This document shows, in pieces, positions 26,938-53,884 of a DNA stretch of 64,000 bases; positions within the stretch are counted from its first letter, which is position 1, and every line of letters starts with the position of its first letter. Location: NCBI GenBank assembly GCA_033807695.1, contig CM066310.1, forward strand, positions 1,984,001 through 2,048,000. Direction: 5' to 3'. Source of the DNA: Daedaleopsis sinensis. Its lineage: Eukaryota > Basidiomycota > Agaricomycetes > Polyporales > Polyporaceae. The position numbers and the translations under genes were made by a program. The notes under the pieces are model-generated. The model was not told the origin of the DNA. It saw nothing but the letters and a program-made list of their open reading frames with translations, and searched no databases.

Positions 26938-26994
26938 ACTAGTAGGACGGCGTAGCCAGACTCGTACAAACCCGTTAGTAAGCTTGACCAAGAT

Positions 26995-27010
26995 TACGAT
27001 TGATGAGTGT
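26995..27010. repeat. 16-bp inverted repeat, left copy
   Basis: TACGATTGATGAGTGT, identical to the reverse complement of 53837-53852. The following bases (TAACG on the left, AAGGG on the right) still resemble each other weakly. Confidence 0.7.
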
Positions 27011-29249
27011 TAACGAAGGAAATCGTTTTTTAACAGCGACGTTCCCCGCCAACCCATGTAACGCGGACTTGACCCCGTGGGAACATATTTCGGACTCCGA
27101 TTACTGGAGGATTAGTATTACATAAGACAAGGTAACAAAGTTTGTTACTGTTTTGACCCTAGCCTAGGGTTAGGGTGGCACATTAGGGTTCCACTAGCGC
27201 CTTTCCGCACAGCCACTGGCGCTTCTTCTCCTCTTACTCGCCCTTCTAGGGTTGCTTATATTAATTACTTACCAGTTATAATCAATATCACATCGACGGT
27301 TCTCCAAGCTTAAGATTTTGATCAAGTTCAGGCGAACACTATCATTACGTTTGTTATATACAATCAGATACTCCGCGGATGGCTAGCACCGTATGATATT
27401 CCCCTACTAGTATGCTTGAATACAGTCCAAGCCTTCGCTATGTCTCGAACTTCATTGTATCTGTAGCTTTAGCGCTCTACTAATCAAAGCAATGTCTAAG
27501 TTCGTCGAAGATTGCCATAACGCTTTGCTCGTCTGCATGCCAGTCTGTACTCGGTATTCTGGCAACGTCCCATGGAAGTTGTAGTCCTTTGGCATCAGGC
27601 TGGGGGTCCTCCTACAAGTCTTGTAAGCGTTGTAAATTGGCAAGGTACTTATGTCAATGAATTACCCGGGCTGGCTGGTGTTCTTGAGAAGCGTCATGGC
27701 TGGCGAGCTGGTCTACTAGATATTCTGACTGCCCATCACTTGTCGCATTGAAACAGCATCGCAGTTCTTGAAAGATTGCCATAACGTTCTCGTCATAACG
27801 CGCAGGCTGCCTGTGCATAGTCGGTGCTATCACCTTCCCTATGGGTGGTGGCGCCTCTGCGACTGGCTCGGAGTCCTTCTACAAGTATGCACTATATGAG
27901 CATTCCAAAGTGGCAGAATACTTGCATTAGTCTCTTACTGTGGCTGGCTTCTGAGATGTCATGTCGTCGATCCCGTGGCAGTCGAGAACTTGTTCGCTCT
28001 ACGCGTATCAGTAAAGCCTTAGTATACTCGCGGGATAGAACTCGCTACTCGAACCTACCTTTGCTCCTTCGAGCATACTACTCGTTCCAGTAATCGTGCG
28101 GTCATGTTCAATCGACGCATCGTGAATTACTTGCATGGTCGCCAGTGTCGCCGCAGCAGCATATTTCTCTTGTTCTCCCACGTCCATTGATATGCAATGT
28201 AGATTGTATGGCTAACGCAGTCTATGTCACATGTTAGTACAATGCTTTAGAGTACTTACACTCTGCATTATTGTCTTCGCGCTGGTCTGTTGTCGTTGCT
28301 CCTCTCAACTTTCCATTCATAATGATAGGTTTTATTCAACTACGTGATGTCTGCGTACATCTATCGGAGCTGTAACGACGTTTTGAGTCACTTACCTTGC
28401 TTGCAATTGATAGCGTCCTTGGAGAAAGGACACTTGTAGCCTGAGTTGCCCAAATTAAATATTGGTCAACAATCATGGCACTAGCGGTTCGCACAGTACT
28501 TACCTTTGAGTAGCAGTATAGCGCACCGTATTGGCACCAGATTTTGTATTGGCTAGGGACTGTGAACAGCCAAAAGCCTGATAGTCGTGGGATGTAGGAC
28601 AGCAACGATGTAGAAGAGGAGGTGGTGGACGTAGTAGAACAAGCTTGGAGGAAGGCCAGGGGAAGCGCCGAGTAGATGCTCGGCAGTTCCCGCCGCGCGG
28701 GAATTTACTAAGCGCTGGCACTGCCACCGGTCCACTAATTCGTGCTGCAGCATCGGTTGACTTCTGTCATCTCCTTCGACCTTCTACTCCCTACTCCTCG
28801 TCCTTCCTCTTCGCCTGCGACATCCTGGCCCTCGCCGTACAAGTGTTTCACACTTTGTAGGCTTACTGGGTAAATCAAAGACGCTCAGGTAAGTGATTTA
28901 ACTCTGATTTGCGCGAGCGACCGCTGTGCATGGTCCCCCTCTATCGTAGCATACGAGACATATAATATATTGTTGTGTTCTTGTCCACATACGTATCAGA
29001 ACAGATCTGTTAAGCAGATTCTAATGCAACTATTACATTGTGATACAATATACGTACAACACGATGAAGCTGCAATGTCTACAGTGGTATGCGGTAGGCG
29101 ATCGATCACGTTACCAGCCCTCAAGAGTACTAGTCTCTATCTGATCTAGACGGTAATGGTGCAATACGGAGAGCGCTTGCTAGTTGATATGGCGCTATCC
29201 TGCTCATATCCTCTCCATTTGCACCTCGCCGCTCACGTTCTAATCAAGG
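27011..29249. other. Element left arm, non-coding, with repeats
   Basis: No gene was recognised over 2.2 kb. A diverged tandem duplication of about 264 bp begins at about 27508 and 27771, both with GAAGATTGCCATAACG-like starts. A TTAGGG-like patch (TAGGGTTAGGG at 27165-27175, TTAGGGTT at 27183) lies near the left end. The last ~400 bp before 29250 would hold the promoter of the next gene. Confidence 0.45.
27508..27960. repeat. Diverged ~264-bp tandem duplication
   Basis: Two successive stretches share AGATTGCCATAACG, then further on GTCCTYCTACAAGT and CTGGCTGG-type blocks at corresponding offsets. The copies are strongly diverged, which suggests an old duplication in non-coding DNA. Confidence 0.45.
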
Positions 29250-30378
29250 ATGTCCAAAGCTGAGGGAACCCCGCTTCCTATGAATTTTGATGGAGTCCAA
29301 GTTCGCATTCGCACTCCGAACGTCCAAGATGTCGCAGCACGCGTCCCGAAAAACGAAGAGACTGAAGCCCAGGTCCCAGCATCGCCGCCAGCTCATCAGG
29401 CTCAGTCTCCCCAGGTATTCAAGCTGCTTCACCGCACGAAGTTCACGACTGATCTCAAACACATGTCTGCAGGCAGTCGATTTGCCCAATGCTCGCTCAC
29501 GCGAAGACGGTATAGTTTCTGCGGCCGAAGCAGTCCCGCTCCGCGCCTCTCCATGCCCGGTATGCAATTGCTATGCTATATGATGTCTCACTCACTCACA
29601 TCTTCATAGCCTCCACCGCCCAGCCTATCCACGCCGGCTACTTTCGATCCACATTGGGCGGACATTGAGCTTTTGCTACCGCGAGGTCTCCGCACATCAA
29701 CACTTCGTAGCGACTATGTTGAAGTCATCCAGAAGATCCGCAGCAAACCGTGCTCTCGCTGTGTGGCTAGGAACATCCCGTGTACTCAAGAACCTACCGG
29801 GAAGTGGACATGGAAGTGCAACGAGTGTATAGTTCATAATCGTGACTTGTGCGATTGGATGCATCGTAAGTTTTCCCAATTGTCTGCCGTACATCTACCC
29901 ACTCTGCTGTCATCCAGAGTCAAAGCAGTTCGGTCTGCTAGCCCAGCCGGATGTAGACCGCTCCGTCAAACGCAAAGAGAACGCACTCAAGAACAAGGCC
30001 AAGAGCAGTACGTCCACTCTGACGTCTCCTCGGCGTGTCCTGCGACGCACCCGCTCGTCCGTTTCCCGCCAAACCAGGGGAACCAGCTCGTCCTCATCGC
30101 AGCCGTCCCTTCTTCGAATGGCGTCCTCAGCCGCTGCAAGCTCATCCTCTCTCCCCGTCCGTCGTCCGTCCTCATCCGTGACCTCACAGTCCGAGCCTTT
30201 GGCTTCTACAATCCGGGATCTCACTGAGCAGGTCGAGGCCACGAGGAGAGAAAGTCGAGACACGCTCAACGCTGTACTGCAGCAGCTTCATCTGCTCAAA
30301 GATACAGTCGCTGGACTTGTTGAGCAGCACGGTTCGTCGAACGTAATCACCGACAAAGGCAAGGGACGTGCTATATAG
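29250..30378 (+). CDS. Cys-rich, coiled-coil hypothetical protein, 322 aa
   Basis: Exons 29250-29414, 29473-29559, 29610-29865 and 29918-30378 total 969 nt. A Cys cluster occupies residues ~120-150: CSRCVARNIPCTQE, then WKCNECIVHNRDLCDW. The spacing CxxC-x6-C ... CxxC-x8-C resembles a zinc cluster of the fungal Zn2Cys6 kind but is not a canonical one. After a Ser/Arg-rich basic region (KRKENALKNKAKSS, RRVLRRTRSSVS) the protein ends in a predicted coiled coil (IRDLTEQVEATRRESRDTL) and KGKGRA. This arrangement is frequent in repeat-associated Agaricomycete proteins; a DNA- or RNA-binding role is inferred. It is the first cargo gene inside the putative 27-kb element. The start has no upstream in-frame alternative with better context. 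Confidence 0.7.
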
Positions 30379-30510
30379 AAATTGTGCCAGTAGTTATTTG
30401 CAGAGTATCACTTGCAGAATACGACTCCGACATCATTCACTTCATGCATACTGGCCGAACTTCTCGCTATGATTGACATTGTGCTAGTAAGAGCAGTGCA
30501 GATATGTTAC

Positions 30511-33264
30511 CTACAGTAAGTACCGGTCTACAGCCGCGATGCTGGTTTCATCAGTTGCACTAGCTAGTTTCGCGCATGGACGGTACTGCCGGAGGACGTT
30601 CTTCCATTTCTTTGCATTCATCGGTAATGTTGTCCCTTCTCGAATAGCTCGCAAACGCCCTTGGAACCAGTCCTCGTTCTTGGGCGTCCAGAAGCCCGTG
30701 TACATCCCGCTCGTTTGCCAGGTGTTGTGTTTTGGCCACCATGATTGGTCTTCGGATTGATTGAACTGCCCTGTAGATGTTATATATTAGGAAAGGTCAA
30801 TTAAGAATGAAGACCTGAACTAAAAAAGCTCACTGGTGTATCTCTTAGTGACCCCGCTGATTATATCCAGCTCCTCCGCAGAGAATGCGTCATCCATATA
30901 GCACACCCTCCCGTCTTGGCAGATCACATCGTGTCGAAAATCCTCATCCGACGGTCCCGAGTCTATCTGTGTCCGCAGCAGGTCTACCATGCCGCCATAC
31001 TCCCGGCTGAACTCCAGCACCAGTCGCCACACAATCCCTCCATACAGCAGCGCTGCACGCGCATGAGCTCCAGAACCGAGAAGATCGACCACACGCCGCC
31101 GGTAGTGACGATAGTCCATGAACGCGTCCGCGTATTCATCCGGCCGGTAGTACGACAACGGCCGTTGACGCGAGGATGCCAGGTACGTCCTACTATCTTC
31201 AGCGATTTGTCCTGCCCGAACAGTGTTGAATGTAGCACCAATCTTCGAGAGCTCCCATGCTGCATCGCACGAGTCTCGAACGGCGTCTGTTCTGCGCAAC
31301 ATGTAGACCAGCACTCTAATCCCCACTAGAAGCTGCCAATCCAGATGATGGGAGTCTGCAGCGTACTTGATCAGGTAGCCTGCTGAGCCGTCTGGGAGGG
31401 TCATCTTCCTAACGCGCAGGACGGTCTTCCAGTAGCTGTTGCGGAAGAGGAAATGGGGGTTATCAGGATGGAGATCCCAGCAGAGTGCTACGCCGGGGGA
31501 AAAGATGCGGCCTTTCAGAATCTCAGAGGCCCATCCTGCATACGAACGTCTAACGTGTGGTGACATGGGGACGGGTTCTGCTCTGGAGAGACCGAAAATG
31601 CTGTAGAAGTCGTCGTTCTGAGCAAGCATGTTGTAGTCGACTGATTGCAGGGGAGGTGACATAGACTCGTCTGGGTGAAGCCCGTACCGCTCTCGAAGAT
31701 ATTCGTCATGCAGGTACTCGGTGGCAAAGGAATAAGTGGGGCTATCGTCAGGCAGAGGTATGGCGTAGAGGAGCTCGTTGTCTGCAGCGAACGCTGCTGC
31801 GGCATCAGGAGATTCGGGCATGAACGGGGGAAGTTCAACCGCGGCAGCCTCGTCTGCTCCAGCTTGCGAGAGAGCGTCCGAACCTTCCTCGCCCGTCCAG
31901 AGGTCCCACTCGTCGAAAGCAGCGTTATAGCGCCGCTCGAGCCGAGAGTACCACACGCCTGGGACTGCCCCACACTGCACTAGACTTCGGTACTCCAAGT
32001 CGGCCCACTCCTCTGGCACATTAGGCTCAGCTTCGCGGGCCGAGATCCAAATGTACACCCGGGAGTAAGGCTTGGGTAGGCGGCGACTCGCTGCATACGC
32101 TTCCCGATCAAGCCGACGACGTCTTTGGGGAGCACCTTCGCGCTTCATCATGCGCTGCTCCAAGGCCGTCATTCGCGCAATGAATGAACTTCGAGGTTCT
32201 CCGGGGAGTTGGAATGGTCCTGCAGGCCTGTGCTTGAGTCGGATACGGTCCTCCAATGCTTGATCATGCGGCCACGGACTTCCTACTCCATTGCAGTAGA
32301 GCTTGTACACGTGAGGTGCTTCGGGGCGGGGTGTAGCGTGCCGTGCCAGGCTAATGTCCCCATCTGAAGGGATCAGATCGCTGATATACGCCTGGTATCT
32401 TGAGGACCACCTCGCCTGGCTGACGACCTCGGGGCCAGGCCACATTATGAATAGCGGGATGTTGGCACGACGTAGGATAGGAGCGTGCTCTGTCCAGCGA
32501 CAAGTCGTAAGATCAATGAATGTCCCCACGCGCGATCCCGGAGTGAAGTCTGCGATTACGGAAGAGCGTAGGGCGTCGATCCAGGAAGAAGGAACTCTGT
32601 TTCCAGCCAACAGGGCTACCCATCTTGGAATATCTGTGGAATCTGCTGCTGTGGACACCGGCAGCCATACGGCGATCGACAACGAGCATCGCGCGGCTAG
32701 AATCATGAATGCATCACGAGCTTTCCGGATGGCAGTCATAGCGGCGCCGGGTGTGACGTGCAGTCGAGCATAGCCGCACTCTGAAGGCAGAACCCAGTGC
32801 GCGAAGGTGTCGATACATTGGGCGGGACGGAAGTTTGCTGCATCTAGGAGAGTAGACCAAACGTGGACGAGTCCTTTCTCCAAGTTCAACCAGGCGGACC
32901 GAGTTGCAGCAGGAAGTCCCCATCCAGCGCTGTAGTGCACCGGGGAGATTACGTCCTGTTCGTAGCCAAGCCGCCCTAGGAGTGGGTCGCCCAAAGGAGG
33001 AGATCGCGGAAGGTACGCTAGCTCTGGAGCGTATACAGAGTACTGAGGCCTGAGGAGGGCGCGAAACGAGAGCTGCTGCACTGCGTCGGATGGAATAGCT
33101 TGGGGAATATCGATTCTGTCTGGCACGTTTGTGACTGTATACACAATTCCATCTCTGTCCGCGAATGTGTACACTTTAGTTTTTTCTCTCCTATTCTATT
33201 TGTCAAGACCCGCGTTCCCTAGAATGGCTTCTCAGGCTTACCCGATCAGCGATGTTGTCGACAT
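30511..33264 (-). CDS. Hypothetical protein, 879 aa, Agaricomycete repeat-associated family
   Basis: Exons 33242-33264, 30834-33190 and 30511-30770 total 2,640 nt. I recognise a widely multiplied Agaricomycete family of unknown function, but no catalytic motif. Visible marks are VYTFADRDG at the N-terminus, YSAGWGLPAATRSAWLNLEK, CGYARLHVTPGAAM, RWVALLAGNRVPSSWIDALR, a middle region KPYSRVYIWISAREAEPNVP, and GGIVWRLVLEFSREYGG before the last intron. The final exon has SWWPKHNTWQTSGMYTGFW and DWFQGRLRAIR, Trp-rich as in family members. The first exon is tiny; the main exon lacks an early ATG (its open frame begins with GTG), so I placed the start at 33264, where a 51-bp intron restores the frame. 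Its start region faces the TET/JBP gene about 2 kb away. Confidence 0.7.
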
Positions 33265-35308: not shown

Positions 35309-38300
35309 ATGGCCCAAGCTCCCAAGCCTGCCCCACCGGGCAGGTTCTACGACGATCAGTTTGAAGGTATAGTCATCGTTGTAGCGCGGTATGCAGGATG
35401 CTGACTCCGCAGTCGTAGACGTCCTCCTACCTCGGGGAGCAGAGCGCGTTCATATCCCGAACCGCGACCCTCGCCTTCCTCGCTTCTATCAGCTGAAGTC
35501 GCACCCGCTCATCACGCCGGCAATGAAAGTGAAGCGCATCTTCTTTTATCTTCAAGACACCGACCCGAAGGCGATGGAGAACTACCATAAATTAGTGTCG
35601 GAGATGGAATTCCCGGAAGGTACATCGGAGGGAATGAATCGAGCAGGTCCGTATGCTCATACTGTTAGACGGCGTCTCTTGGCTGATCACATCGTCATAG
35701 GCTTCTTGGATCTTGAACCTGGCGATTATCTCTTCTGTCGCGACATTCGCGGATCTCGTAAGGACACGGATGATGTGTTGCAGATGTGGATCCAGGACGA
35801 GTATGTGATAGGCGTTCCTGCCTAGCAGCATGTATTAATACGCGTGATTTACAGAGATTTCTTCACCTTGGATCAGTACAACGTGTTCAAGGACGCTCGT
35901 GACGCAGCCCTTGGCCCGAGAGACCAGCGTACCGGCGAGAAAGCCCAGAACATGGACGGCAAGTTTGAAGGGGGCGTGCTCTACGAGCGCCACGAACTCG
36001 CAGAGAATGTCAGCAACTCGCCGCGCTGCTTCACCCTAGCGCAATCGTACCAAGTCCAGAACAACGTAGTCGCTCCTTCCAAGACAACGAAGATCCCTCC
36101 CGAGGAGGCTCCGTCGGACCATCTTCTCCTCCGCGAAAAGATGATCAAGGTATGTACGTGCAGTAACGAGATTTTTACTTTACGTCTTATCGGATACATA
36201 TCTAGGCTGCTGCTCCTATTGGGATCGCCGCTCTCGAGGCTGCTCCTGCGCACCTGAGCGACGCGCTGAAGAGACAGGCCGAAGTCACGAACCTCCCGCG
36301 AGTTGGCTGCGATGCAAACTATGCATTCCCGACTATGCAAGCCAACTTTGCTGCGACCCAACCGGCCAGTTCGCAAGCATGTAAGTATTGTTGATTCCCA
36401 ACTCAGCGTCTTGATAGCTTATACGCCTTGCAGTGGGCCGCCTCAAGAAAGATTTCGGCGCGTTCGGCGGGAAGCACATTGACCGCAACGATTGCGAGGG
36501 TGGAATCACGTCCATGATTACGTTCAGTGATCTGGATGTCGACGACAGCCCTGGACGCTTTATCGTTGGGGATCTCGGTGTCGGTGTTGGTATGTAGTAC
36601 CTGTTCTGTCTGTCTGCCGCACATCCAATATAGATTTTCGCTGTAGTTCTCAAACGCTTGGTCGTGATCAATTTCTGTGGGCTTCGCTACCACGGAGGCT
36701 ATCCTCCAACTGCTGCTCCAGGGAAAAAGCCGCAACTCTGGTCATATCGGTTCACGATCGTTTGCTACCCTCCAAGATCCATGCTCGACGGTTCGTCAAT
36801 TCTCAGTCTGGGCGCGCTACCAGGCAAGCGATCGTTCTTCGCCATGCCGCCAGAGTTTGTTGATCCAAAGTGCGTGGCTGAAAAGTATGTAAGATTAGTC
36901 GCTGACATTAAATACTAGATATGACAAGGAACCCATTCACACGAACGTTGCCAATTGGATCCACTCCGGCCTTTACCTCACCACCCCATCCGCATTCCTA
37001 CAGTTCTACTACCGCAGCTTGTGCCAGCTCGCCTACCATTTTGGACGCCAATTTCCGTCAGACCGCGCCAAGCTCAACATCGATTACAAGAAGTTTGCGG
37101 AATCGTTCACGCTCGTCGACAGCGAGAACAACACTCACCATGCCCATTTCTGGGAGTTACACCCCGGCTCGACCGCGAAGTCGAGCGAATTTGGGTGCTC
37201 GCGCGAGGAGGCTGTAAAGCTGTGGGAGGATCACAAGGCCAGCCAGGCGCGTTTCATCCCGTACGTCTTCAACAAGAAACAGACGGGTAAGCAAGGTGGG
37301 CATTTTGATATCTCACCTTCCGCTGCGAAACTCAAATGCGCATTAGTAGGAAAGAAGGCGCCTGTCAAGCGGAAGCGTGCGGTTGAGAACGTCGACAATG
37401 ACGATGAACGTGAGTCATACCAGTAGCTTCCTGACGGCGTCGTCAATCTAATGACCTTATAGCTCCAGTGAAGAAGGGCAAGAAGAAGCATAAGAACTCC
37501 AAGAAGCATCAAAGCGAGCTCCATGGCGGGGCATCAGGTCAGTGGCTAGCCTGTATAGATGTGAGCTGAATCTCTGATATATTATTGCAGGCTCGAAGAA
37601 GCGCAAGCGGCGACCGGTATCGGACGATGACGAGGACGAAGAATGGCAAGCAGACGATGAGGGACAAGACGATGAAGAAGGTGAGGACCTAACAAAGATG
37701 CGAAGGTCTCGAATATAATGTTCATACCTGCAGCTGTCTTCCACACAGAGCGCAGAGAGGCCCCCGATACCGTCGCCTCTCGGAGGACTAGGTTCCATGG
37801 CAATGGCGCCGAAGATCTTCCGCAGAAGGCTCCAGGCCAGCGTCGTGCGACTCGTTCGCAAGATTCGATGCTGGCCCTTGCGGGTAGCACCCTGACTGGT
37901 AAGTACCATATATCTCTAGTACTATGCTGCCGCTCATTGTGCTCGGGTGCACTGATTATCCAGATTCTTTCAACCCGGATCTTTCCCTAACTGGAGAACG
38001 ACTTGAACCCGACGAAGATCTGTTAAACTACCTCGCGGAAAGGGCCTACGGATCTGATTCCGAGGACGCAGACAGATCCGAGGACGCGCATGGTATGTTT
38101 GCTGCGTCCAGTCTGCCTTACGCATGCTTAGGCGCTCCCAGACAATTCCGTTCTTCAGCAAAGTGCAACACCCTCCGAACTACACGTGCAAGCCAGACCG
38201 TCGCGTACATCTCGTTCCTCTGCGCGACAGTCTCAGCACTCACCGGTTCAACCGCGGGATAAAGAGACATCTTCGGAGGCGATTCCGACGGCTTCCAGGT

Positions 38301-40277: not shown

Positions 40278-40447
40278 ATACTTGTTTGCTTTTACGTTCC
40301 CAGGCAATGTTATGGAGCTCTTGCATCATATCTGGATTAATGATATGCTAATATTACCATAAGAAACAATGTGTGCAATCTAAGTATAGGGATGCAAGTG
40401 GCTAGTAAGGTAAGGGAGCAACAAACGGACGAGGATAAGTAGGTAGT

Positions 40448-41752: not shown

Positions 41753-42523
41753 GGTGTTAAACAGGAGGCAGAACCTAATGGTCAAGAGAACGGTAGAAGC
41801 AGATGGGATGGGGGGAAAGAGCTGAGTCCTTCAGGCTCTGCAACCTCAGTATATGTGACGGGCGACGCGCCTGCAATTCGGGCGCAGTCAGGCCCGACCG
41901 CGTTGCTTCGGTCAGCATTGCCGTCTGGTCACCGTTTCATGAACGCGTGCTGACCATCTGAGCAGTTACGCGGACCGCTTGGCTCTGACCTTCGGCCAGA
42001 ACGGTTTGGCGTGTGCAGGCCCTGTCAGCTAACCGACGCGCTTGATCGGTTGCCCCATCCTCCCTTGCAGTGTACTCTTTGAGCTCTCTCCTCCTCTGCT
42101 TTGTTAATTCATTTTGAACTCAAACTGTAGGAGCCCATATTCCCTAGACTTTCAGCATTGAATCGAAGAACTTGCACTGCAGTACGATGGAGGAGGATGG
42201 GCCCCGTTGCTGCGTTCCTCATCAGCTCATATCGCGTAGCGGAGTCTGCTCTCTACCGCGCCGTCGCATAATTTGAGGTCTGAACTAACGCGTTGTCCTT
42301 GCCACGCACTCCTGACACCATCGGTTGTCAGCGGTGTTCTGGGTCTTGGCTTTGAGGTATATATACCCTGCCCGAGCACGCCTCTCTCTCAGAGTCCATC
42401 GTTCTTGAGCTCTACCTACCCCGTCCTCACTTATCGCCCACTGCGTCCCTTCTTCTCTCTCGCCCTTCCGACAACCATTGCTCGCTGCACTCCTCGCCTC
42501 TACCTCCATCCTCTACTATCGCC
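41753..42523. promoter_or_regulatory. Divergent promoter region with TATA box
   Basis: Lies between the head-to-head starts of the 342-aa gene and the gene at 42524. A clear TATA box (GGTATATATACC, 42356-42367) sits ~160 bp upstream of the plus-strand ATG and is followed by a long C/T-rich leader, typical of well-expressed fungal genes. Confidence 0.6.
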
Positions 42524-45408
42524 ATGTCTTCCCGTGCTGCTCGTACCCGTACTCCCTCCGGCAAGGCCGCTGCTGCTAAGGCGGCCAAGGCTGCTCCGGC
42601 CAAGGCTAAGGCTACTCCTGCAAAGGCTGCAGCAGCCAAGCCCGTGAAGACTTCTAAGGCTGTCGCTGAGCGGGCTTCCATGTGCGTATATCTTGACGGT
42701 GTGGATGACTGCTGTCATGCTGACCGATGCTCTTCCAGGACCAAGCCTAAGCCTCGTGCCCGTGCTAAAAAGCCCATCACGTATGTCCTATCTTCTCTTT
42801 ATCGCTCACGTATCTCCATGCCTACTTTTCTCTTCTACAGTCCTGAGATTGTTGAGGATGAGGCGGAGGAGGTGGATGAGGACGAGGCCGCTAAGGAGGA
42901 GGAGGATCATGGCGAGGAAGACAATGCTGAGGAACAGACGGGGGTGGACATTACCTCGTAAGTTACATTCTGCTTTCTCGTTTGCTATTTGCCAACACCT
43001 TCCAGTGATGACGACATCAGCTACACCTCTGTCGCCACCAACGAGGATGATGATGAGGACTATGAGGTTGTCCAGCAGGCTCCAGTCAAAGCTCCTGCTC
43101 GCCGCAAGACAGCACCCCGTAAGGCTCCCACTCCTCAGAGCCCTAAGATCCGGTATGTGTTCGTCTTAGTATATTTCAGCCCTTCACTGAGTTAGTGAAA
43201 CAGTCGTTCTCTCAAGGACGGCGAGGTGCCTGTGAGCCAGGAGAGCCCCTCTCCCAAGTACGTCCACATATCTCTGATCCATCATATACTCAATGATCCA
43301 CAGAAAGCCCAAGAACCCCGTGGCCAGAAAGCCTTCGTTCGCAGTAACGTCTGTAAGCACTCCATCCAGGAAGCGTGTCAAGGAGTAAGCTCAGAGTTTG
43401 CTCTTCTTCTACCGTTTGCTAACCTGAATTTTAGAACTTACTCGGACGAGGACTCTGCGGAGGAGTGAGTCCTGCTACAAGCAGCTACTGCTGACAACAT
43501 ATGTACTAAACGTCTGACGTACAGAGCTTCTCCGGTCAAGAAGGTTAGAGAGGAGTAAGTGTAACATCATCTCTTTGAGATTTCTCCGGTCTGATAGGAT
43601 GGTCAGAACTCCTGCCTCAAATGAGGACTCGGACGTTGAGATGGTGGAGTACGTGTCTACTATCTATGCGATTAGCTTCACTTTGTGCTGATATCGCTAT
43701 TTCAGGGCCGCTGTTGTCAAACGCGGCCGTCGCGGTGTTGAGCTCGTTGACAAGAAAGTTCAGACCGCCCCACCTCTTCCCCGCCGCATTGGGGCTACTA
43801 CCAAGGCTGCTCCTGGTGGAACCCCGAGGAAGGCCAAGGGTGCAGTGGCCCCGAAGTGAGACCGGATGATGCATCTATAACTTTCTGCTTCTAACTGCGA
43901 GCTATAGCTCCGCCGACACATTTTTCAATCCCTCTGATATTGACCGTTCCTCTGACACGTAATGCTTCCTCTACTTTACATCACCTTCCCTTCTCATACT
44001 CTTTACGCTTCTCTTAGATATCGCCGCCAGGCGAAGTTGTTTACGGATGCTACGGACGAGTCTGCTGGGGGCAATGTGGCCCATGTTACCGAAGCGTATG
44101 TCACTTTTAATACACTTTACTTGTTCTCAATCTCAAAGTGTGCTTTCTCCAGGATGCAGGAAGTCCATATTCAAGCACCAAATCTCAACGAGGGTATTCT
44201 TGACTTTGAAACCCCTGGAGCGCTTTGCGAGCTTTTGCTGGAGTCATACAAGTCTCTTCCGGTGTTGCAGTGAGCATACTCATCTCAAGCATTAACATTC
44301 TCTTACATCTTTTCATAGGCCCTGCACAATAGACACCGGAAGCAGCATATTGAGTTCTGCTCTGCTTCAGGATCACATCATTGATGGTCCCTACGATGTA
44401 CACCCTCAGTAAGTTTTTAACTCAGCATAATCATTTGCTACCAATTGACCGACATATCTATAGAGCCCTCTTGGACCTTGTCAAGTTCAGCCATGACGGG
44501 AAAGCCGATGACCCATTCGTCATCAACGCCGCCCGTGCTAATCCCACCCTTGCTAGGGCGTATCAGTATCCCAACTGGAGGGGCTTTTGCTTAGCTGCCA
44601 ACGTCAACAGCCCTACCCCTCCTCGCCTTATCTGTGCGACTATCGTTGTCTGCCTTAGATCTCACATCATTCACCCAATGCAGATGGCTACCACTCCCCC
44701 CCGTTTGATGAAGGAGTTCTTGGGGGTCCCACTCCGCGGTGAACTGGAGCGTTCTATCGCATTCTACGGCACTATCTTCGGCCGAGAGGTTCTTGGTGTT
44801 CAGAACTTTGGTGCCGGCATCGGAGAGCACCGTCAGACTGGCCTGGTGTTCCGCACCTATGCTGATGTTCCCAACAAACCCAGCACCGGTATGTTTTTCC
44901 TTATATGCTATTAACTCATGCTTGAACTGATAATATCTGGTACAGGACGATCTCTTGGAGGCATGGGAGCTAGTCCTGCTATGCTTCGCAAGGCCCAAAC
45001 TCCTAAGCGCGCTGATGCTGGGCCAGCACGTTCTCTGCTCGACATGCGAGACAAAACCAGTTGGAGCTACACCGAGAACTGTGCGTCGCTTTTTCACCGA
45101 TATTCTCTCTAAAATCTAACTGCTTCTCAGTCGCTATCTGGGATGCCCGAGAGTACTTCACTCTTGACAAGGATGATGGGCTCCAGTACTTGCATGAGAA
45201 TGTGGCGTCTCTGCCTCGTCTCCAGGAGGATCTAGAGTTTGGTGACCTTGCCATTCTCTATCACAGTGTTAGTACCTACGACCAAGGGCGTCCGGCGGGG
45301 GGGTCTTCCGGCGACAGGCCTCCTGCATACAATGAGGCTGAGACGGTGCTTTCCATGAACTTGTATGGCGCTGCTCTCGTGTCTAAGCACGGTAGCAAGA
45401 GCATCTAG
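42524..45408 (+). CDS. Lys/Ala-rich chromatin-type hypothetical protein, many exons
   Basis: A gene with well over ten short exons. I verified the first junctions: 42524-42681, 42739-42780, 42841-42957, then 43006 onward. The N-terminus is a linker-histone-like Ala/Lys/Pro repeat (GKAAAAKAAKAAPAKAKA, KPKPRARAKKP), followed by acidic stretches (EEVDEDEAAKEEEDHGEED) and more basic, Pro-rich segments (RRKTAPRKAPTPQSPK). The second half is globular: LLDLVKFSHDGKADDPFV, RGFCLAANVNSP, then at the end SWSYTENF, DLAILYHSVSTY and VLSMNLYGAALVS. The closing strands look like those in other repeat-associated Agaricomycete proteins. The composition suggests a nuclear, nucleic-acid-binding protein; the function is not known. 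It is the last cargo gene before the Rep-helicase. Confidence 0.65.
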
Positions 45409-46109
45409 CTGGCTACGTATCGCCTTCTCCCTATTATCATCTTGTACCTTGCTTTCTCGACGACGTCTTCAACAGACATCTTATGGTATTCTGCACTCTC
45501 ACCTTTTTATTTTGCTGCTGAACTTGTGCTCCTCCCCCACATTTGTTGTCCGTCTGTTTCATGAACTTCTTCATCGTTACCGGCATGTTCTGACTCGGTC
45601 ATCTACTAGTATGGACTTCTCTGTCGCTCGCATGTAACACGTCTTCCAACGTGCTTTACCTATACCTGACAAATTGAAGTGTTCCATGCTATACGCTCTA
45701 TTTCAGCGACAACAAACTCAGTACAGAACCTGAATTTTGAGGAGCAGAACGATGTTGCTCTGAGTTTAAGAGAGACACGATCACATGACTTTTGACGCAC
45801 ACAGCATGTTGAAGTTCAATGAGACGCCCACCTCCTTCAACCGAAACTGCCTCGTCACCATCTACTAGACCGATCCTCCTACACAATATGTGTCAGCACT
45901 CAGGAATACCCTTACTGTTCCAGCTGTGGAAGAGCATTGTGATGCTCATGATAAGTATGCTAATCATAGGACACAGTAGAGTGCTTCAAGCACCTCTGTT
46001 CAACTGCCTCCACCTATCAAACTTAGAATTCTACGACCTAGATATATCCTCAGGTATGTCATTCTGGTGACGTGTGGACCAGAGCCTTTGCTAACTCATT
46101 TCTCTAGTC
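45409..46109. other. Leader of the Rep-helicase gene, possible decayed exons
   Basis: No intact gene. A stretch near 45720-45860 translates as NLNFEEQNDVALSLRETRSH with nearby stops, like an N-terminal Helitron segment that has decayed. A consensus intron-like GTATGT...TTTCTCTAG ends just before the ATG at 46110, so an upstream exon may exist. Confidence 0.4.
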
Positions 46110-49100
46110 ATGTCTATGCATTACCTCTGCAACCCTGTGCAGTCTTTATATCATAACTCTTATGGCATGTTGTACAGCCCGGGTTTTGCAGACGCCCGTT
46201 TAACAAGTACTGCGCCCCATGTGGGCAGGGTTTTGGGAGGCACCCTCTTGGCAAGCACTCCCCAAGTTTGTAATTATAATTTGGGTTCATCATTTGAGGA
46301 GACTCTGCAAACAATGCCCACAACGGAATCTTACTTCGGTTATAGCCTTGACAATGCGCTATGCAACAGCAGTCGTTCAATTTTCATTGCAGTGTCTCTA
46401 ATCAAGCATCATATATTGAGCCAGACCGCTTACAAACATGACAATGTTGTGCATAGGGCTAATATTGGCATGCTGAGTAAGCTTACATATAAACAAGGAC
46501 TGCGGCGTAACTTAACCCTGGCAGATCAATTTCCGAGCTGCTTTGGAGGTGAACGACCTAGAGCTCAGGGCAGTAAAGGAGTTGCCAAAAGCTGGTCCTC
46601 TACGCAATTATGCGACTATCCAACGGTTGGCGATATCCTGCCAGATACTACATTCAAGTTTTTGTCCTATAATCCGAAGGATACATTCATATCTACCACC
46701 AGGGCGGTAGGAGTGGATCTTCCCATTTCTCTTTTAACCGCTAAATTGACAAAACCTATATTGACCGACATTGCTTTGAAGCATGGTATTTCTGGGATCA
46801 CAAAACATTACTCAAAAGATGATATAGCACAACTTCTACTCTCTCACCGGTGTTCTGTGTGCCCAGGCTACTTATCTATATTTACGCCTGTCGCATCTCC
46901 TAAAACTACCAAGCAGCGTGTTCAAGAGCATCGGAAACGTATGAAACCTTTGCCTGAAGGAAATGATTTCCCTCCTAAGCCATTAACTCGTAGTCTAGAA
47001 AGTGAAATTATCTCAGACTTTGCGAAAGCTGTGCAAGTTGACAGTTTCTTGGAGAGCGCATGTGCTGTGTGCGGGCTGCTTACACCAAAAAATGAGCTTC
47101 AAATTATGGAGACTGCTGGCCTCAACTTAGACATACTGATACCTAATGGTCCAGTCACTCGTAAAGAGCGACAATCCCAAGATGAAGTCATCTCTGAACT
47201 GCCAGGTCCAGTAACTATCCCGAACTGCAAGGACATTTGTTCCTCCTGTTTAAAGGATATTAATGTTGGGAAACTACCGAGTGATAGCCTAGCTAACGGG
47301 TTGTGGATTGGGGAGATCCCGCCGCAATTGCAGGGTTTGAGTTGGACGGAAAAAATGCTGATATCCAGGGTCAAACACAACATCTGTATTGTCAAAGTTC
47401 ACGTCTCTGGAATGTCCAAAATGAAGGCAAATGTGGTCAGTCACTCTCTTCCAATGCCTAAGATCCACAATGCACTACCTCCTGCAAGAGAAGAGTTAGA
47501 TGATGTTCTGGCATTTATGTATATTGGACCGAACATTCCAACCCACAAAGACTACAAAAGAACTCCTATGCTAGTGCGTCGTAACAAAGTAAAGGAGGCG
47601 CTTGAATGGCTGAAGTTAAATCACTGTGACTATGCTGACCTTGACATATCTTACAATAATTTGAGTGAGTACTCAGAGGAGGAACCACCGGTCATCGTCA
47701 ACTATACTCAAAGTATGGAGTCCAACAAAGATCCTGAATCCACTGCAGTCAATGATACGGAGGAGGATGAAGGTATTGAGCAAGGAGACTGCCCATTCGT
47801 TGTTCATGGATTGACCGGAACTGCTCTGGCGGACCTTGCCGATGTTCGCCCATATGAGATTACTGCACGAGCAGTAGAGCATTTCAAATCAAATGGAAAG
47901 GCTCTCGGCATAGGTCAAGCCAAACAGCCTGAAAGTCTTTATGACAACCCGCAATTATATCCTCAGATGTTTCCATGGCTATTCCCATACGGAATGGGAG
48001 GATTGAACAACATGTGTAGTCACGGAACTAAAGCAGTGTCTGAGGAGCGTCGGAAGCAGCAACTACTGATGTACCATGACAAACGTTTCCAGCTAGAACC
48101 TCTGTTTCCACTTGTCGCTTTGAACCACGAGCAAATCAAGAAGTCCACAAAGGGGGGATATATTCTTGCTGATAAGAGTAAATTCCGTGACATTGCGCAG
48201 CGCATAGTGAATATTGATTTGGCAACACTTAGAGATATAGTAGACCGCTTGAAATCTGGTCCAGTAAAGCCTGAGACTGAATCTGAGAAGGAGTGCTTTA
48301 AGGTACTAAATGACTTGGATCATGTTAATCATCGAGTACAAGGGTCTATAACCAGCAAGAAATATATGCGCAATGAAATATGGTCATTAGTTTCATATCT
48401 CGGAGCACCGTCATGGTTTATTACATTTGCTCCTGCAGATGTTAAGCACCCAGTTGCGCTGTACATGGCAGATACAAATCAAGAATTTGTACCAAAGTTT
48501 AGAGATCAGGATGAACGACTACGTCTCATTGCAAACAATCCTGTGGCTGGAGCTCGATTCTTCAACGTAATGGTTAACTTATTTCTGAAGTATGTCCTAG
48601 GTGAAGGGCTAGATCGACCTGGGCTTTATGGTGATACCTCAGGATATTATGGGACGGTAGAGCAGCAAGGTCGTCTAACGCTCCATCTACATATGCTGGT
48701 TTGGATCAGAAATTCTCTCACGCCTCAAGAAATTCGTGATCGTATTATGGACCCTGAGTCTGATTTCCAACAGAAAATGGTTGAGTATTTAGAGAGTGTA
48801 CATAAAGGAGAGTTTCTTGATGGAGATATGGAGGCAGTTGGTGAGCGACTTGATAAGGCAAAACTGGATAATCCATTCCGTGTTCCAGCCACTGAGAAAT
48901 TGCCTCAAGTACCACCATCAAAGTGCGGGCATGATAATGATCCCAGTTGTGCTCGGTGTAAAGCTTACAATACTTGGTGGGCTGCATACATCAAGGAAGT
49001 AGACGAGATTTTATATACATCTAATGTACACAAATGCACTACAAGGAACCGGAAAGGTCAGTTACCAAAAGGAGGGCAAGGCAGCATGGCTGAGGTGGAT

Positions 49101-52100
49101 AATCGAGGATGTACGGATCCAGTTACTAGGACATGTAAAGCTAGATTCCCTCGAGAGACATTTGTAGACACTGCTGTGGATCCAGAGACTGGAGCTCTAA
49201 TTATGAAGAAGGGTGAGCCGTGGTTGAATACCTTCACTCCATCGGTGTCATATCTACTCCGATGCAATCACGATGTCACTAGTCTTTTATCAGGTACAGC
49301 CATTAAGTCTGTTATTGCATATGTTGCAGATTATATAACTAAGACCCCGCTGAAAACCCACGTCATGTTTCAGTCTATACAGAAAGTGTTTGAGAGAAAC
49401 ACTGAGCTTATTGGGGGCAGTCAAAGTGCTCGAGATAAAGCGAGATCTCTAATCACTAAAATGGTCAATGCCCTCACCGCTGCGTCAGAGATAGGGGGTC
49501 CTATGGCATCTATGTATCTTTTGAAGCATCCTGACCATTACACTAGTCACAAGTTTAGGCCATGCTTCTGGAGAGGATACGTGCTTGAAGTCATGCAAGC
49601 ATGGCAGGATTCAAAAGATATCACGCAGGAGGGTAAATCTACTGTAGTTGTGGATTGTGATCAGGGCGGTCAAGAGGGATCTAATAGAATTGTCGCCCTG
49701 TCACCAGTTATTGATTACATGCACCGGCCAGTTGAGTTAGAGCATATTAGTGTGTATGACTGGGTGCGTAGATATAACAAGAGGCCCATTCCCAAGAGTA
49801 GGCGAAGACTTGTTGCCCACCTTGCTTCAGCACCTCATGTCAATGACGGGGATGACAGTGATGAGTTTGAGAACGATTACTATGTGGATGAGCAGATACC
49901 TGCTAAGGCTGTGGGAGGGAAGGCTGAACATACTGAATATGATGATCCGGAGCTACTTGAGGATAGTGATGGGGACCTGAGCGACAATGATGATTGTGAA
50001 CTAGCTCCAACTTGTAAAGGAGGAGGACATCCTTTAGCCCAGGAAGAGGAGGAGTCTGACGACGAATTACTCTTGACAACAAAGACTGCTCAGAAGTATA
50101 AGGAGACTGAGCTTTGTAATATGGTCAAGAAAAAGAGTAACTCTCAATCCTACTCTAACTTCACAATAAAACATCCTCAAGCACGAACACACGAGGTTTG
50201 TCTTCTTGAAGAACTAGAATCTTATATCCCAAACTTTATTGGAGGCGCATTTCCACGTAAAGATGCGGGGAGTCGTGAGGAGTATTGCATGACAATGCTG
50301 ACTTTATTCAAGCCATGGAGAACCGGAAATGACTTAAGGCCCAATGCTGATACATCTTGGAGTAATGTATTTGAAGGTCATAGCTTTACTGAACGTCAAA
50401 CAGAGCTGATGAAATTCTTCCATATCCGTTATGAATGTAATGATGCCAGAGACGACTTCTCTGCTATGCGTAAGCAGGCAGAGAAAGGGTATCAACACGT
50501 ATATATGAGCAATGACGACCTTGATGAAATAGAGACTCAGCAACACATATTTGATGGCGAGGCCACAAGTGCAGAGCGGGAAGATGCTATAGTCAATGCT
50601 GATGATTGGGATCTAGATTCCAGGGCAGAGATTCTAAGAAAGTCAAGAATGGCTACAGCAGAAAACATTATGAATATCTCAGGATGGATGGATCGTATGC
50701 AAATCAATGATGTGGAGAACCTACCCAAGATATCTAGACGCCTCAAACCTGCTACACCTGCGACAGATTGGAAGACAATGCTCGATAACTTGAGAAAAGA
50801 TATTCTTGAAAGCAGAGCCGCTGAAGCAGGAAAAGCAACCAACAATTCATCTCAGCTACCGGTGAATGAGGAGGTGAACAAAGTCAAACTTGTAGACAAA
50901 CAGTACTTTGTCTCCAAAAGTTTTGAGATCAAGGACCCGCAAGCTAGAGAGTTGATTGATAATATCGTTATTACATTCAGCTTGAACGAGGAGCAAGAGA
51001 GAGCCTTTAGAATTGTAGCAAATCACGCAGTAGAGTCGTGTGGGGAGCACTTAAAAATGTATTTAGGCGGCATGGCTGGCACAGGCAAATCTCAGGTTAT
51101 CAAAGCTTTATCGCACTTTTTTGCAGAGAGACATGAGAGTTATCGTTTTATGTGCCTTGCGCCTACGGGCTCAGCGGCAGCCCTGATAGGTGGCTCTACC
51201 TATCACTCAATGCTCGGTTTCCGTTCAAAAGACTCTGCCGAGTCCATATCTTCTATCCAACAAGTCAGAGAAAGGCTGCGATTTGTCCAATACATATTTA
51301 TTGATGAAGTAAGTATGGTGGACTGCGCTAGCTTGTATAAGATATGTGCAAAGATGTGTGCTGCTATTCAAAATGATGGAGCACCTTTCGGTGGTATCAA
51401 TATGATATTTGCAGGAGACTTTGCCCAGCTTCCTCCCTCCATGAATGGAAAGGCACTGTATGCACATGATGTTGGTCGGGTCATCCACCGTACCCATGAC
51501 CATGCAAAGCAAAAGGCCTCTATAGGCAAAGCTTTGTGGCATCAATTTACTACAGTCGTAATACTTAGACAAAATATGAGACAGCGATCTCAGACGCCAG
51601 AAGATGCAAAGCTCCGTACAGCTTTGGAAAACCTTCGATATCGTGCATGTACGGAAGATGATATCCGGTTGATAGAATCTAGAGTAGCAGGGAGAGGTAA
51701 ACATCAACCTAAAATAAATCAACCAAGATTCCGCAATGTCTCAGTAATTACTTCATGGAATTCTTATCGGGACAAGATCAATGAACTTGGGTGTGCACGG
51801 TTTGCTAGAGAGAATAAATGTGTACTTAAGTCATTCTACTCCATTGATAAACTCACTGCAGAGACTGACCCATCTGAGCTACCAAAGGGTATTCGGGCTA
51901 AACGAGTAAATCCTAAGCGTAAGAACAATATCATTAATGAGAAGCTACAAACATCGTTATGGGGACTAGATCACCACTTATCTGAGCACCATCCTGGAAC
52001 TCTCAACATATGTGTTGGCATGCCAGTTATGATAAAAGTCAATGAGGCTACGGAATGCTGTGTGACTAATGGAGCTGAAGGTGAAGTTATAGGCTGGACA

Positions 52101-53789
52101 TCAAGACCTATTCCTAATTCAGAGGACAAGTTGGCATTAGAAACCCTGTTCATTCGACTTACCGCTGCGCCTACCAAGGTCCAACTACCTGGCCTTCCAG
52201 AAAATGTGATTCCTCTATCTCACTCCAAGCGCAAAGTGAAATGCAAGATGCCCAACGGTAAAATACTTGAGATTGAGAGAGATCAGGTATCAGTCGTTCC
52301 CAACTTTGCCATGACTGACTTTGCATCTCAAGGTCGCACTCGGCCTAATAATGTTTGTGATTTACAGAATTGTAGAACTCACCAGTCTGTATATACCTGT
52401 TTGTCAAGAGGATCAACTCTGGAAGGGACAATCCTTATTCAATCCTTTGATTCATCTAAATTGACAGGGGGAATTGCAGGGAGTCTGCGTCAAGAATTCC
52501 GGGAACTTGAATTACTGGATGAGATAACTCGCCTGCGTTACTTGGGCCAAGTACCTCCTCAAGTGGTAGGAATCACTCGAAATGAACTGATTCATTCATT
52601 CCGCAAGTGGAAGGGAGAAAACTTTATGCCAAAGTCTATGCATAGCGCAATAAAGTGGTCAGACAAAAACCCTTTCCCGGTGAATCCTGTGACCGAGGAC
52701 AGCCCGTGGACAATAGTCAAAACTTCAGGGAAAAATGCAGACACTTCTAAGGAGAAAGGCACAGTCAAGCGCGATATATCTAATTTTATCAGTGCAAAAG
52801 GGACTCAAGCTCTTAGGTCAATTGGGAACTCCTTAGTGAAGAAGACTGACAAACGGAAACGTGACATTGAAGATGAAGAGTTACGCAATACAGCCGCAGT
52901 ACGCAAACGAGCAAAGCCAATCAGAGTCAATGCTCCTCCCTTGGGAAGTTCATTAAAGGGAATACCATGGGATGAGGACAACTGGAGTTGCGCATATGAC
53001 AGTCTTATGACAATACTTTTCTCTGTATACTCTGAATGCCAGGATGCATGGCAAAGTGACGCATCTCCCAGAAGTGATATATTGCTCAAACTTGATGAGG
53101 TGTTCAATAAATGTCTCTCTGATCCTAGTACATCAACACTATCACAAGCTAGAGACCAAGTACGAAATATGCTCGGTTGCGAGGATCATGAGCTTGGACC
53201 TAAAGGCAAGACTACCACAGATCTATATCTACTAGCTCGTAGAATGTTAGCAATAGATGATAATGTACTACTCAAGAGTTACGTGTGCCGCTCATGCGAA
53301 TATAAAGAAGTAGACAAACCATTTTATGACATTCTATGGACATGTTCCAATCAAATGTGGAAGAATCACCCAGACAAACTGGGAACACCAAAGGGGAAAA
53401 CAACGGCCAAGTGGTTAAATGCTCTAAGGACTCAACAAAGAGAACGTCACTGCCCTCAATGTAACCGCCATCTATTAAGATATCTCAAGTACGATGTGGC
53501 TCCTCCATTTATTGCATTTACTCTAAGAGAATTTAAAATGCGAGTTGACAATCAGTTTGTTCTGCAGGAAATTAATCAAATGTATAGGCTGTGTGGAATT
53601 ATATATATTGGCAATAATCACTTTATATCTAGAATTGTTGATAAATCTGGAGGCGTATGGCTACATGATGGAATTGAGCATAAGGAGCATGTACTATATT
53701 ATGACAATATAATTAATTTCCCTTACCAGAAGTTGCAGACTGTTAGTAATGATTATGTCATGGCTTTAGTGTTATATACCAAGCTGTAA
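46110..53789 (+). CDS. Helitron-type Rep/PIF1 helicase with C-terminal peptidase-like domain, 2,559 aa
   Basis: A single uninterrupted frame. It would nick and unwind DNA for rolling-circle transposition. DUF6570-like region at residues ~405-540 (SWTEKMLISRVKHN, ELDDVLAFMYIGP). Helitron-like N domain from ~609 (LYPQMFPWLFPYGMGG). HUH motif as LHLHMLVW at ~856; Rep tyrosines in YVADYITK at ~1070. PIF1-type helicase with Walker A GMAGTGKS at ~1653, Walker B FIDEVSMVD at ~1730, and FAGDFAQLPP. The final ~275 residues start WDEDNWSCAYDSLMTIL (candidate nucleophilic Cys), have a CxxC pair (CPQC) and NNHFISR plus VWLHDG (candidate His and acidic residue), resembling a ubiquitin-specific-type cysteine peptidase. 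The gene is clearly richer in A+T than its neighbours. It ends 64 bp before the right inverted repeat. Confidence 0.88.
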   Translation: MSMHYLCNPVQSLYHNSYGMLYSPGFADARLTSTAPHVGRVLGGTLLASTPQVCNYNLGSSFEETLQTMPTTESYFGYSLDNALCNSSRSIFIAVSLIKHHILSQTAYKHDNVVHRANIGMLSKLTYKQGLRRNLTLADQFPSCFGGERPRAQGSKGVAKSWSSTQLCDYPTVGDILPDTTFKFLSYNPKDTFISTTRAVGVDLPISLLTAKLTKPILTDIALKHGISGITKHYSKDDIAQLLLSHRCSVCPGYLSIFTPVASPKTTKQRVQEHRKRMKPLPEGNDFPPKPLTRSLESEIISDFAKAVQVDSFLESACAVCGLLTPKNELQIMETAGLNLDILIPNGPVTRKERQSQDEVISELPGPVTIPNCKDICSSCLKDINVGKLPSDSLANGLWIGEIPPQLQGLSWTEKMLISRVKHNICIVKVHVSGMSKMKANVVSHSLPMPKIHNALPPAREELDDVLAFMYIGPNIPTHKDYKRTPMLVRRNKVKEALEWLKLNHCDYADLDISYNNLSEYSEEEPPVIVNYTQSMESNKDPESTAVNDTEEDEGIEQGDCPFVVHGLTGTALADLADVRPYEITARAVEHFKSNGKALGIGQAKQPESLYDNPQLYPQMFPWLFPYGMGGLNNMCSHGTKAVSEERRKQQLLMYHDKRFQLEPLFPLVALNHEQIKKSTKGGYILADKSKFRDIAQRIVNIDLATLRDIVDRLKSGPVKPETESEKECFKVLNDLDHVNHRVQGSITSKKYMRNEIWSLVSYLGAPSWFITFAPADVKHPVALYMADTNQEFVPKFRDQDERLRLIANNPVAGARFFNVMVNLFLKYVLGEGLDRPGLYGDTSGYYGTVEQQGRLTLHLHMLVWIRNSLTPQEIRDRIMDPESDFQQKMVEYLESVHKGEFLDGDMEAVGERLDKAKLDNPFRVPATEKLPQVPPSKCGHDNDPSCARCKAYNTWWAAYIKEVDEILYTSNVHKCTTRNRKGQLPKGGQGSMAEVDNRGCTDPVTRTCKARFPRETFVDTAVDPETGALIMKKGEPWLNTFTPSVSYLLRCNHDVTSLLSGTAIKSVIAYVADYITKTPLKTHVMFQSIQKVFERNTELIGGSQSARDKARSLITKMVNALTAASEIGGPMASMYLLKHPDHYTSHKFRPCFWRGYVLEVMQAWQDSKDITQEGKSTVVVDCDQGGQEGSNRIVALSPVIDYMHRPVELEHISVYDWVRRYNKRPIPKSRRRLVAHLASAPHVNDGDDSDEFENDYYVDEQIPAKAVGGKAEHTEYDDPELLEDSDGDLSDNDDCELAPTCKGGGHPLAQEEEESDDELLLTTKTAQKYKETELCNMVKKKSNSQSYSNFTIKHPQARTHEVCLLEELESYIPNFIGGAFPRKDAGSREEYCMTMLTLFKPWRTGNDLRPNADTSWSNVFEGHSFTERQTELMKFFHIRYECNDARDDFSAMRKQAEKGYQHVYMSNDDLDEIETQQHIFDGEATSAEREDAIVNADDWDLDSRAEILRKSRMATAENIMNISGWMDRMQINDVENLPKISRRLKPATPATDWKTMLDNLRKDILESRAAEAGKATNNSSQLPVNEEVNKVKLVDKQYFVSKSFEIKDPQARELIDNIVITFSLNEEQERAFRIVANHAVESCGEHLKMYLGGMAGTGKSQVIKALSHFFAERHESYRFMCLAPTGSAAALIGGSTYHSMLGFRSKDSAESISSIQQVRERLRFVQYIFIDEVSMVDCASLYKICAKMCAAIQNDGAPFGGINMIFAGDFAQLPPSMNGKALYAHDVGRVIHRTHDHAKQKASIGKALWHQFTTVVILRQNMRQRSQTPEDAKLRTALENLRYRACTEDDIRLIESRVAGRGKHQPKINQPRFRNVSVITSWNSYRDKINELGCARFARENKCVLKSFYSIDKLTAETDPSELPKGIRAKRVNPKRKNNIINEKLQTSLWGLDHHLSEHHPGTLNICVGMPVMIKVNEATECCVTNGAEGEVIGWTSRPIPNSEDKLALETLFIRLTAAPTKVQLPGLPENVIPLSHSKRKVKCKMPNGKILEIERDQVSVVPNFAMTDFASQGRTRPNNVCDLQNCRTHQSVYTCLSRGSTLEGTILIQSFDSSKLTGGIAGSLRQEFRELELLDEITRLRYLGQVPPQVVGITRNELIHSFRKWKGENFMPKSMHSAIKWSDKNPFPVNPVTEDSPWTIVKTSGKNADTSKEKGTVKRDISNFISAKGTQALRSIGNSLVKKTDKRKRDIEDEELRNTAAVRKRAKPIRVNAPPLGSSLKGIPWDEDNWSCAYDSLMTILFSVYSECQDAWQSDASPRSDILLKLDEVFNKCLSDPSTSTLSQARDQVRNMLGCEDHELGPKGKTTTDLYLLARRMLAIDDNVLLKSYVCRSCEYKEVDKPFYDILWTCSNQMWKNHPDKLGTPKGKTTAKWLNALRTQQRERHCPQCNRHLLRYLKYDVAPPFIAFTLREFKMRVDNQFVLQEINQMYRLCGIIYIGNNHFISRIVDKSGGVWLHDGIEHKEHVLYYDNIINFPYQKLQTVSNDYVMALVLYTKL

Positions 53790-53836
53790 TATACCAAGGT
53801 CTTACTCTTTATCATGCTTTGAGCTCAACCCCCCTT

Positions 53837-53852
53837 ACACTCATCAATCGTA
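53837..53852. repeat. 16-bp inverted repeat, right copy
   Basis: Reverse complement of 26995-27010, placed 48 bp after the Rep-helicase stop codon and 4 bp before the hairpin. Confidence 0.7.
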
Positions 53853-53856
53853 CTGT

Positions 53857-53868
53857 GCCAGACCTGGC
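53857..53868. other. Terminal hairpin (GCCAG-AC-CTGGC)
   Basis: A perfect five-base stem with a two-base loop, directly outside the right 16-bp repeat. Helitron-class elements end with a short hairpin that marks termination of rolling-circle transfer. The position is right, but a stem this short can also occur by chance. Confidence 0.5.
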
Positions 53869-53884
53869 CGCCTTCCCCACAAGT

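Follow-up and report, generated by a model that had tools for sequence, protein, structure and literature searches.

In a stretch of 64,000 nucleotides from the polypore Daedaleopsis sinensis (assembly GCA_033807695.1, contig CM066310.1, positions 1,984,001 to 2,048,000 of the forward strand; hereafter the window), two same-strand pieces of an AA9 gene are separated by DNA that an initial annotation had proposed to be a single Helitron2/Helentron-like mobile unit carrying a TET/JBP gene. Our analysis indicates that this DNA is very probably a rolling-circle transposon of the Helitron superfamily, 26.9 kb long and autonomous-looking, whose ends are Helitron2-like and which is one of a family of large elements with several genes each. 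The element (26994-53884, plus strand) measures 26,890 bp and spans either 26994-53883 or 26995-53884, a single ambiguous T belonging to the host or to the element. The right limit originally proposed, 53884, is consistent with this delimitation; the left one, 26938, has to be moved inward to 26994 or 26995. On the right, the host flank holds the 5' part of the AA9 gene (53884-54238, minus strand, base 53884 being host or element; PF03443, E 2.8e-19), and the junction is exact when compared with a paralogous locus that this contig also carries. At the left side, the 3' part (26020-26682, minus strand), assigned by alignment to that paralogous locus, has no Pfam match itself and aligns at 83% beside the 5' piece there. 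Between this 3' part and the element lie 311 bp (26683-26993) that are unexplained; a genome search with the flank 26640-26992 gave no match besides the query itself and 43 bases of the AA9 paralogue, which makes the unexplained bases single-copy up to 26992.

The element is bounded, as first proposed, by a perfect 16-bp inverted repeat, whose left arm (26995-27010, plus strand) is terminal and has like or identical counterparts in the other left ends read, and whose right arm (53837-53852, plus strand) is subterminal, 32 bp inside the right end. No run of 16 arose in 500 shuffles of the terminal 300 bp of both sides (shuffled mean 8.1, maximum 15). The hairpin with a 5-bp stem reported to follow the right repeat copy was also recovered, as GCCAG-AC-CTGGC at 53857-53868 (plus strand), 16 bp short of the end; folded as RNA, it forms a short stem with a 4-nt loop. 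The element itself begins with TTACG and ends with CAAG(T). In a divergent relative, the C7 element, both repeat arms have nevertheless changed together (left ACGATTGATGAGG, right CCTCATCAATCGT), and its right end, read by eye, shows the hairpin GCCA-GGAA-TGGC followed by CCAAGT.

Searches of the D. sinensis genome itself (51.6 Mb, 24 contigs) returned 38 places for the left-end probe, the window included, and 29 for the right-end probe, six of which represent AA9 flank only and 23 the element part. The initial annotation had tied the single-unit model to the existence of further copies of the ends, and these exist. Most of the other left-end matches (27 of 37) start right at the terminus (the equivalent of window base 26992-26994), and 21 of the 23 element matches on the right, counting the window, extend to the terminus. 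Two copies, on C9 and C10, have both ends about 28.2 kb apart within flanks that differ from those of the window, their terminal 273 bp being 94% identical to the window element and their right 13.6 kb 98% and 97% identical, respectively. When the two flanks of the C9 copy are joined through a single T, the 300 bases align in full with C8:1392138-1392437, at 99%, which identifies the latter as an empty site; it reads GAGAG-T-CGGTG and reveals no target duplication beyond one ambiguous T at this one site. A frame is open across the whole 3.3 kb fetched around the empty site, with a Helitron_like_N match adjoining at C8:1390575, and a frame of 407 codons runs uninterrupted through the joined C9 flanks, so that the C9 copy sits within the Rep gene of another Helitron. 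The recurrence of both ends on two other full-length copies, together with the clean C9 empty site, bears out the proposal that the whole interval is one mobile unit. Separately, both family ends were observed 1.4 kb apart at C4:3463791-3465241 and 13.4 kb apart at C2:1589241-1602645; these are likely deletion derivatives that rely on other copies.

Just inside the right end, where a Rep/PIF1 helicase had been annotated, an open reading frame (ORF) of 2563 amino acids (46095-53786, plus strand) encodes a Rep-helicase composed of DUF6570, Helitron_like_N (E 2.9e-32) and PIF1 helicase (E 1.2e-24) domains and a C-terminal Cys-protease-like region. It contains the HUH motif LHLHMLVW and the two-tyrosine motif YVADYITK; its ratio of nonsynonymous to synonymous substitution rates (dN/dS) against the C9 copy is 0.136. 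Its last 300 codons hold WSCAYDSLMTILF, two CxxC pairs and HFISRI...WLHDG, and these Cys, zinc-ribbon and His motifs, read by eye, may be suggestive of a ubiquitin-specific protease. The combination of an HUH Rep and a PIF1-type helicase in one protein and the insertion without target duplication (one site) are those of the Helitron superfamily, and the asymmetric terminal inverted repeats with a 3' hairpin are those of Helitron2. The putative class, Helitron2-like, is drawn from these ends. The TTTT target followed by T or C described for Helitron2 (PMC5148889) is absent from the empty site and no TTTT precedes the left ends read. Strict Helentron membership, the other half of the class originally suggested, is not supported: Pfam found no endonuclease domain in the whole Rep ORF at E<=0.01 or in three pieces of it at E<=10, and the target at the one empty site is not the TT dinucleotide. 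The ends do not fit canonical Helitron1 (5'-TC ... CTRR-3', A/T insertion). In the part of the element's frames that was scanned with Pfam, only Helitron domains were significant and no KDZ transposase was found.

The gene that had been annotated as TET/JBP, g3 (35391-37426, plus strand), was modelled by hand as six exons encoding a 593-amino acid TET-like 2-oxoglutarate/Fe(II) dioxygenase in which the HxD, distal H and R residues are present. HxD is present in six of six copies (window, C7, C9, C10, C11 sister and the copy beside a Plavaka transposase on C8) and invariant in alignments of relatives (8/8 and 9/9 rows), and the distal H and R are present in the five copies in which they were read (all but the C11 sister). 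Over 516 codons, dN/dS between g3 and its C11 sister is 0.058. Its assignment comes from a fold model of an Earliella relative that is 36% identical to g3. When structures were ranked against this model, the 16 highest-scoring chains were all of TET2, NgTet, CMD1 or CcTet, and their Z scores exceeded that of the best AlkB-like chain by 1.5 to 3.8; all eight Foldseek matches at E<=0.001 are CMD1 or CcTet. On this modelled fold, a double-stranded beta-helix nearest to TET/CMD1, g3 is TET-like by fold only: the earlier claim that a TET/JBP gene is aboard holds for the fold of the relative and fails for membership of the Pfam family, Tet_JBP being matched at E<=10 neither by g3 nor by any of eight aligned relatives. 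A whole-genome search with Tet_JBP (PF12851) gave 22 matches, none of them in the window; these 22 represent a second, separate set of TET/JBP genes. The HxD found in the copies and relatives read does not agree with a PE-type TET, which has HxE.

A number of observations weigh against the reading of the interval as a single, TET-like-gene-bearing mobile element. Some concern g3, which lacks any Pfam or PDB sequence match (a PDB sequence search with a profile of its relatives also gave nothing), whose Earliella-relative model has a mean predicted local distance difference test (pLDDT) score of only 58, an earlier model of another relative being unusable at 32, and whose C11 sister contains one stop codon in the alignment, skipped in the dN/dS count. 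Others concern the Rep, whose protease-like C-terminus has neither a Pfam match nor a PDB sequence match, and the copies: ten of the 37 other left-end matches start off the terminus, five of them up to about 12 bases beyond it and the other five within the element; the own-genome search found no empty site for the C10 copy; the C10 Rep carries stop codons; and g1, described below, was not found in the C9 and C10 copies. The window copy is, moreover, a mosaic in which 40272-53884 is 97-98% identical to C9/C10 and most of the 27.3-40.3 kb part is different. Lastly, the AA9 paralogue contains nothing related to the sequence at 26683-26993; in its place stand about 170 bp that by eye include AA9 coding sequence. 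The left junction is therefore not a clean empty site, and the AA9 gene is split, though not by a demonstrably clean insertion; of the proposed disruption, both same-strand pieces and the right junction stand and the clean left junction does not.

The absence of a Tet_JBP match, the low model confidence and the further matches of the relative's fold to AlkB and FTO chains leave some room for g3 being another 2-oxoglutarate dioxygenase, AlkB-like for example, unconnected to methylcytosine. We consider this rather unlikely in view of the ranking of TET-type chains in both structural comparisons, and since distant TET/JBP-like proteins of Agaricus transposons have been described as barely detectable by sequence (PMC12730594). 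The mosaic structure raises the possibility that the window element is a dead, immobile recombinant of two elements, its left and middle part resembling C11:1195468, the middle coming from a lineage near it, and its terminal 273 bp and right half being as in C9/C10. This, too, is doubtful: the Rep is open over 2563 codons at the low dN/dS given above, the g1 and g4 frames and the hand-made g3 model are open, and both ends are intact.

Between the left end and the Rep, the element carries six further genes or candidate genes besides g3. Two of these are long open frames with no Pfam match at E<=0.01, g1 (30823-33195, minus strand; 791 amino acids) and g4 (38058-40274, plus strand; 739 amino acids), the latter adjoining g3 in other polypores. 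Gene g5 (40448-41752, minus strand) is multi-exon in a hand-made model, has no Pfam match at E<=0.1 and is conserved in the C7 element, as is g7 (44354-45405, plus strand), a set of reading frames with an uncertain model, two of which were scanned and have no Pfam match. Weaker are g2 (29595-30375, plus strand), consisting of ORF pieces with a Cys-rich stretch, part of which shows 67% DNA identity to the C11 sister (PF00172 at a sub-threshold E of 0.44), and g6 (42416-43950, plus strand), Lys/Ala-rich then acidic frames with an uncertain model and weak conservation. Against the C11 sister element, dN/dS is 0.163 for g1. The ratio for g4 between window and C9 is 0.116, but with saturated dS (4.2), and that between C9 and C10, 0.98, stems from four changes, too few for use. 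These ratios are descriptive counts. Other comparisons were saturated or had too few changes, and dS between window and C7 was not computable for Rep, g4 or g1.

Seventy-two places in the genome match Helitron_like_N (71 above the Pfam cut-off), and a gene-order table assembled by hand, one row per place, shows an upstream g3-g4 pair in matching orientation at 19 of these Rep loci and g1 as well at 16. The left end followed by g1, g3 and g4, with order and orientation conserved, is found at 14 of the 72, and the right end in addition at five, window included, as detected with the window's right-end probe; this last number is a lower bound because right ends diverge, C7 being an example. At those loci other than the window, g1 is just 32-46% identical to the window g1. 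The genes of the C7 element, from g1 through Rep, are collinear with those of the window, including g5, g7 and, weakly, g6. The conserved order and orientation and the low dN/dS of g1, g3 and Rep argue that the extra genes are residents of the family rather than recent cargo. The five cargo genes first counted thus persist as at least five conserved genes (g1, g3, g4, g5, g7; g2 and g6 are weaker), but not in the sense of a recent load. That a small Helitron serially took up host genes, leaving an interior of captured cargo without a role, would accord with the gene-fragment capture described for Helitrons (PMC6431247, PMC4289320) and with the AMP-binding enzyme fragment near the left end of the C9 copy (PF00501, E 1.6e-5, below cut-off); it is nonetheless very unlikely given the same order at 14 to 16 of the 72 Rep loci around so divergent a g1, the dN/dS of 0.06 (g3) and 0.16 (g1), and the joining of g3 and g4 in Earliella and Lentinus protein models. 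The AMP-binding-like piece itself (L026:7849-8523, in the left part of the C9 element) is probably captured host DNA; C10 shares the region and the window has other sequence there. Distant relatives of g1 (31-35% identity; open frames of 732-769 codons) were also noted at C8:2430822, C8:4081458 and C3:3137551, off the listed Helitron ends. That nested independent insertions in AA9 mimic a single element, as the unclean left junction and the occurrence of insertions into other Helitrons in this genome might suggest, is hardly credible when C9 and C10 share both termini and the right 13.6 kb in different flanks, both ends surround the conserved gene order at four Rep loci besides the window, and the C9 empty site is clean.

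The g3-g4 pair also occurs at C8:3392.9-3397.9 kb, C4:3880.2-3885.2 kb and C9:429.9-434.9 kb, and none of the listed Helitron ends or Reps lies less than 30 kb from these places. Downstream of the C8 pair lies a Plavaka transposase frame (PF18759, E 1e-29); the stretch preceding this frame recurs in C4, again 2379 bp from g4, and also in C9, there split into two pieces and some 15 kb distant. From the common arrangement of these three copies (C8:3392866-3401900, C4:3876634-3885168 and C9:413194-434928), we infer that Plavaka may carry g3-g4. Elsewhere in the window, non-LTR retrotransposon-like ORFs with endonuclease, reverse transcriptase and RNase H domains were noted at 6398-11905 (plus strand) and 58452-63635 (minus strand).

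The usual picture of a Helitron is that of a Rep-helicase gene, sometimes with captured fragments in addition. The present element of about 27 kb behaves instead as a small genome with conserved extra genes. In the mechanism we propose, Rep would nick at the hairpin-bearing ends with their asymmetric repeats, peel off and circularise one strand, and this circle would insert beside a T without target duplication. The g3 product would act on the element that encodes it, oxidising methylated bases there and relieving silencing, so that the TET-like gene may help the element to escape being silenced by its host; g4 might act together with g3, given that the pair is kept together even beside Plavaka transposase, and Rep may be shielded from degradation by its own C-terminal region, acting like a ubiquitin-specific protease. 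It is a plausible, evenly balanced proposition that we are dealing with a giant rolling-circle lineage endowed with a stable complement of about seven accessory genes, in which the g3-g4 pair serves against silencing and is swapped between Helitrons and Plavaka, and in which element halves are reshuffled among co-resident copies.

The initial annotation considered a Helitron vehicle for a TET/JBP gene unusual and KDZ elements the published association. The former point is not supported: TET-bearing Helitron1 elements in rusts and Pezizales and TET-bearing Helitron2 elements in Agaricus bisporus are already in print (Kojima 2025, PMC12730594), and the vehicle is therefore not unprecedented. The same source reports TET-bearing Plavaka in Agaricales and transfer of TET genes between superfamilies, a Plavaka-TET association having been implied earlier for Trametes versicolor and Fomitopsis. 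The element described here shares with those Helitrons a TET/JBP-like dioxygenase gene. It differs in that, in the available text, Kyakuja is the only TET-bearing vehicle given for Polyporales, the PE type has HxE where g3 and its relatives have HxD (a distinction made by description), and no large conserved gene set is described for the TET-bearing Helitrons. The Helitron2-like FoHeli elements of Fusarium (PMC5148889) resemble ours in asymmetric terminal inverted repeats of 12-16 bp, a right arm about 20-50 bp inside the end and hairpins; they differ in size (about 5-11 kb), in 5' ends (TCAG or TGCCT as opposed to TTACG) and, for FoHeli1/2, in insertion between TNAT and T. HELPO1 of Pleurotus ostreatus (PMC4289320), compared by description, offers another case of basidiomycete Helitrons with extra genes, capA, capA2, capB and capC being without known domains, but its elements have one to four "captured" genes and about 7-14 kb. 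The OTU or VTD deubiquitinase domains known from Helentrons (PMC9741609) make a protease-like region beside the Rep-helicase plausible here too, although our element shows no Pfam endonuclease or OTU domain and its C-terminal motifs look ubiquitin-specific-protease-like by eye. We recognised no description of a conserved multi-gene fungal Helitron of such size in the literature surveyed, from which subscription journals were largely absent. What the present element adds to the known Helitron vehicle is its size, its conserved gene set, an HxD dioxygenase type invisible to Pfam and the g3-g4 pair. Since one genome combines Helitrons with and without g3-g4, closely similar copies and a Plavaka-associated pair, it lends itself to testing why dioxygenases that modify DNA are carried by transposons.

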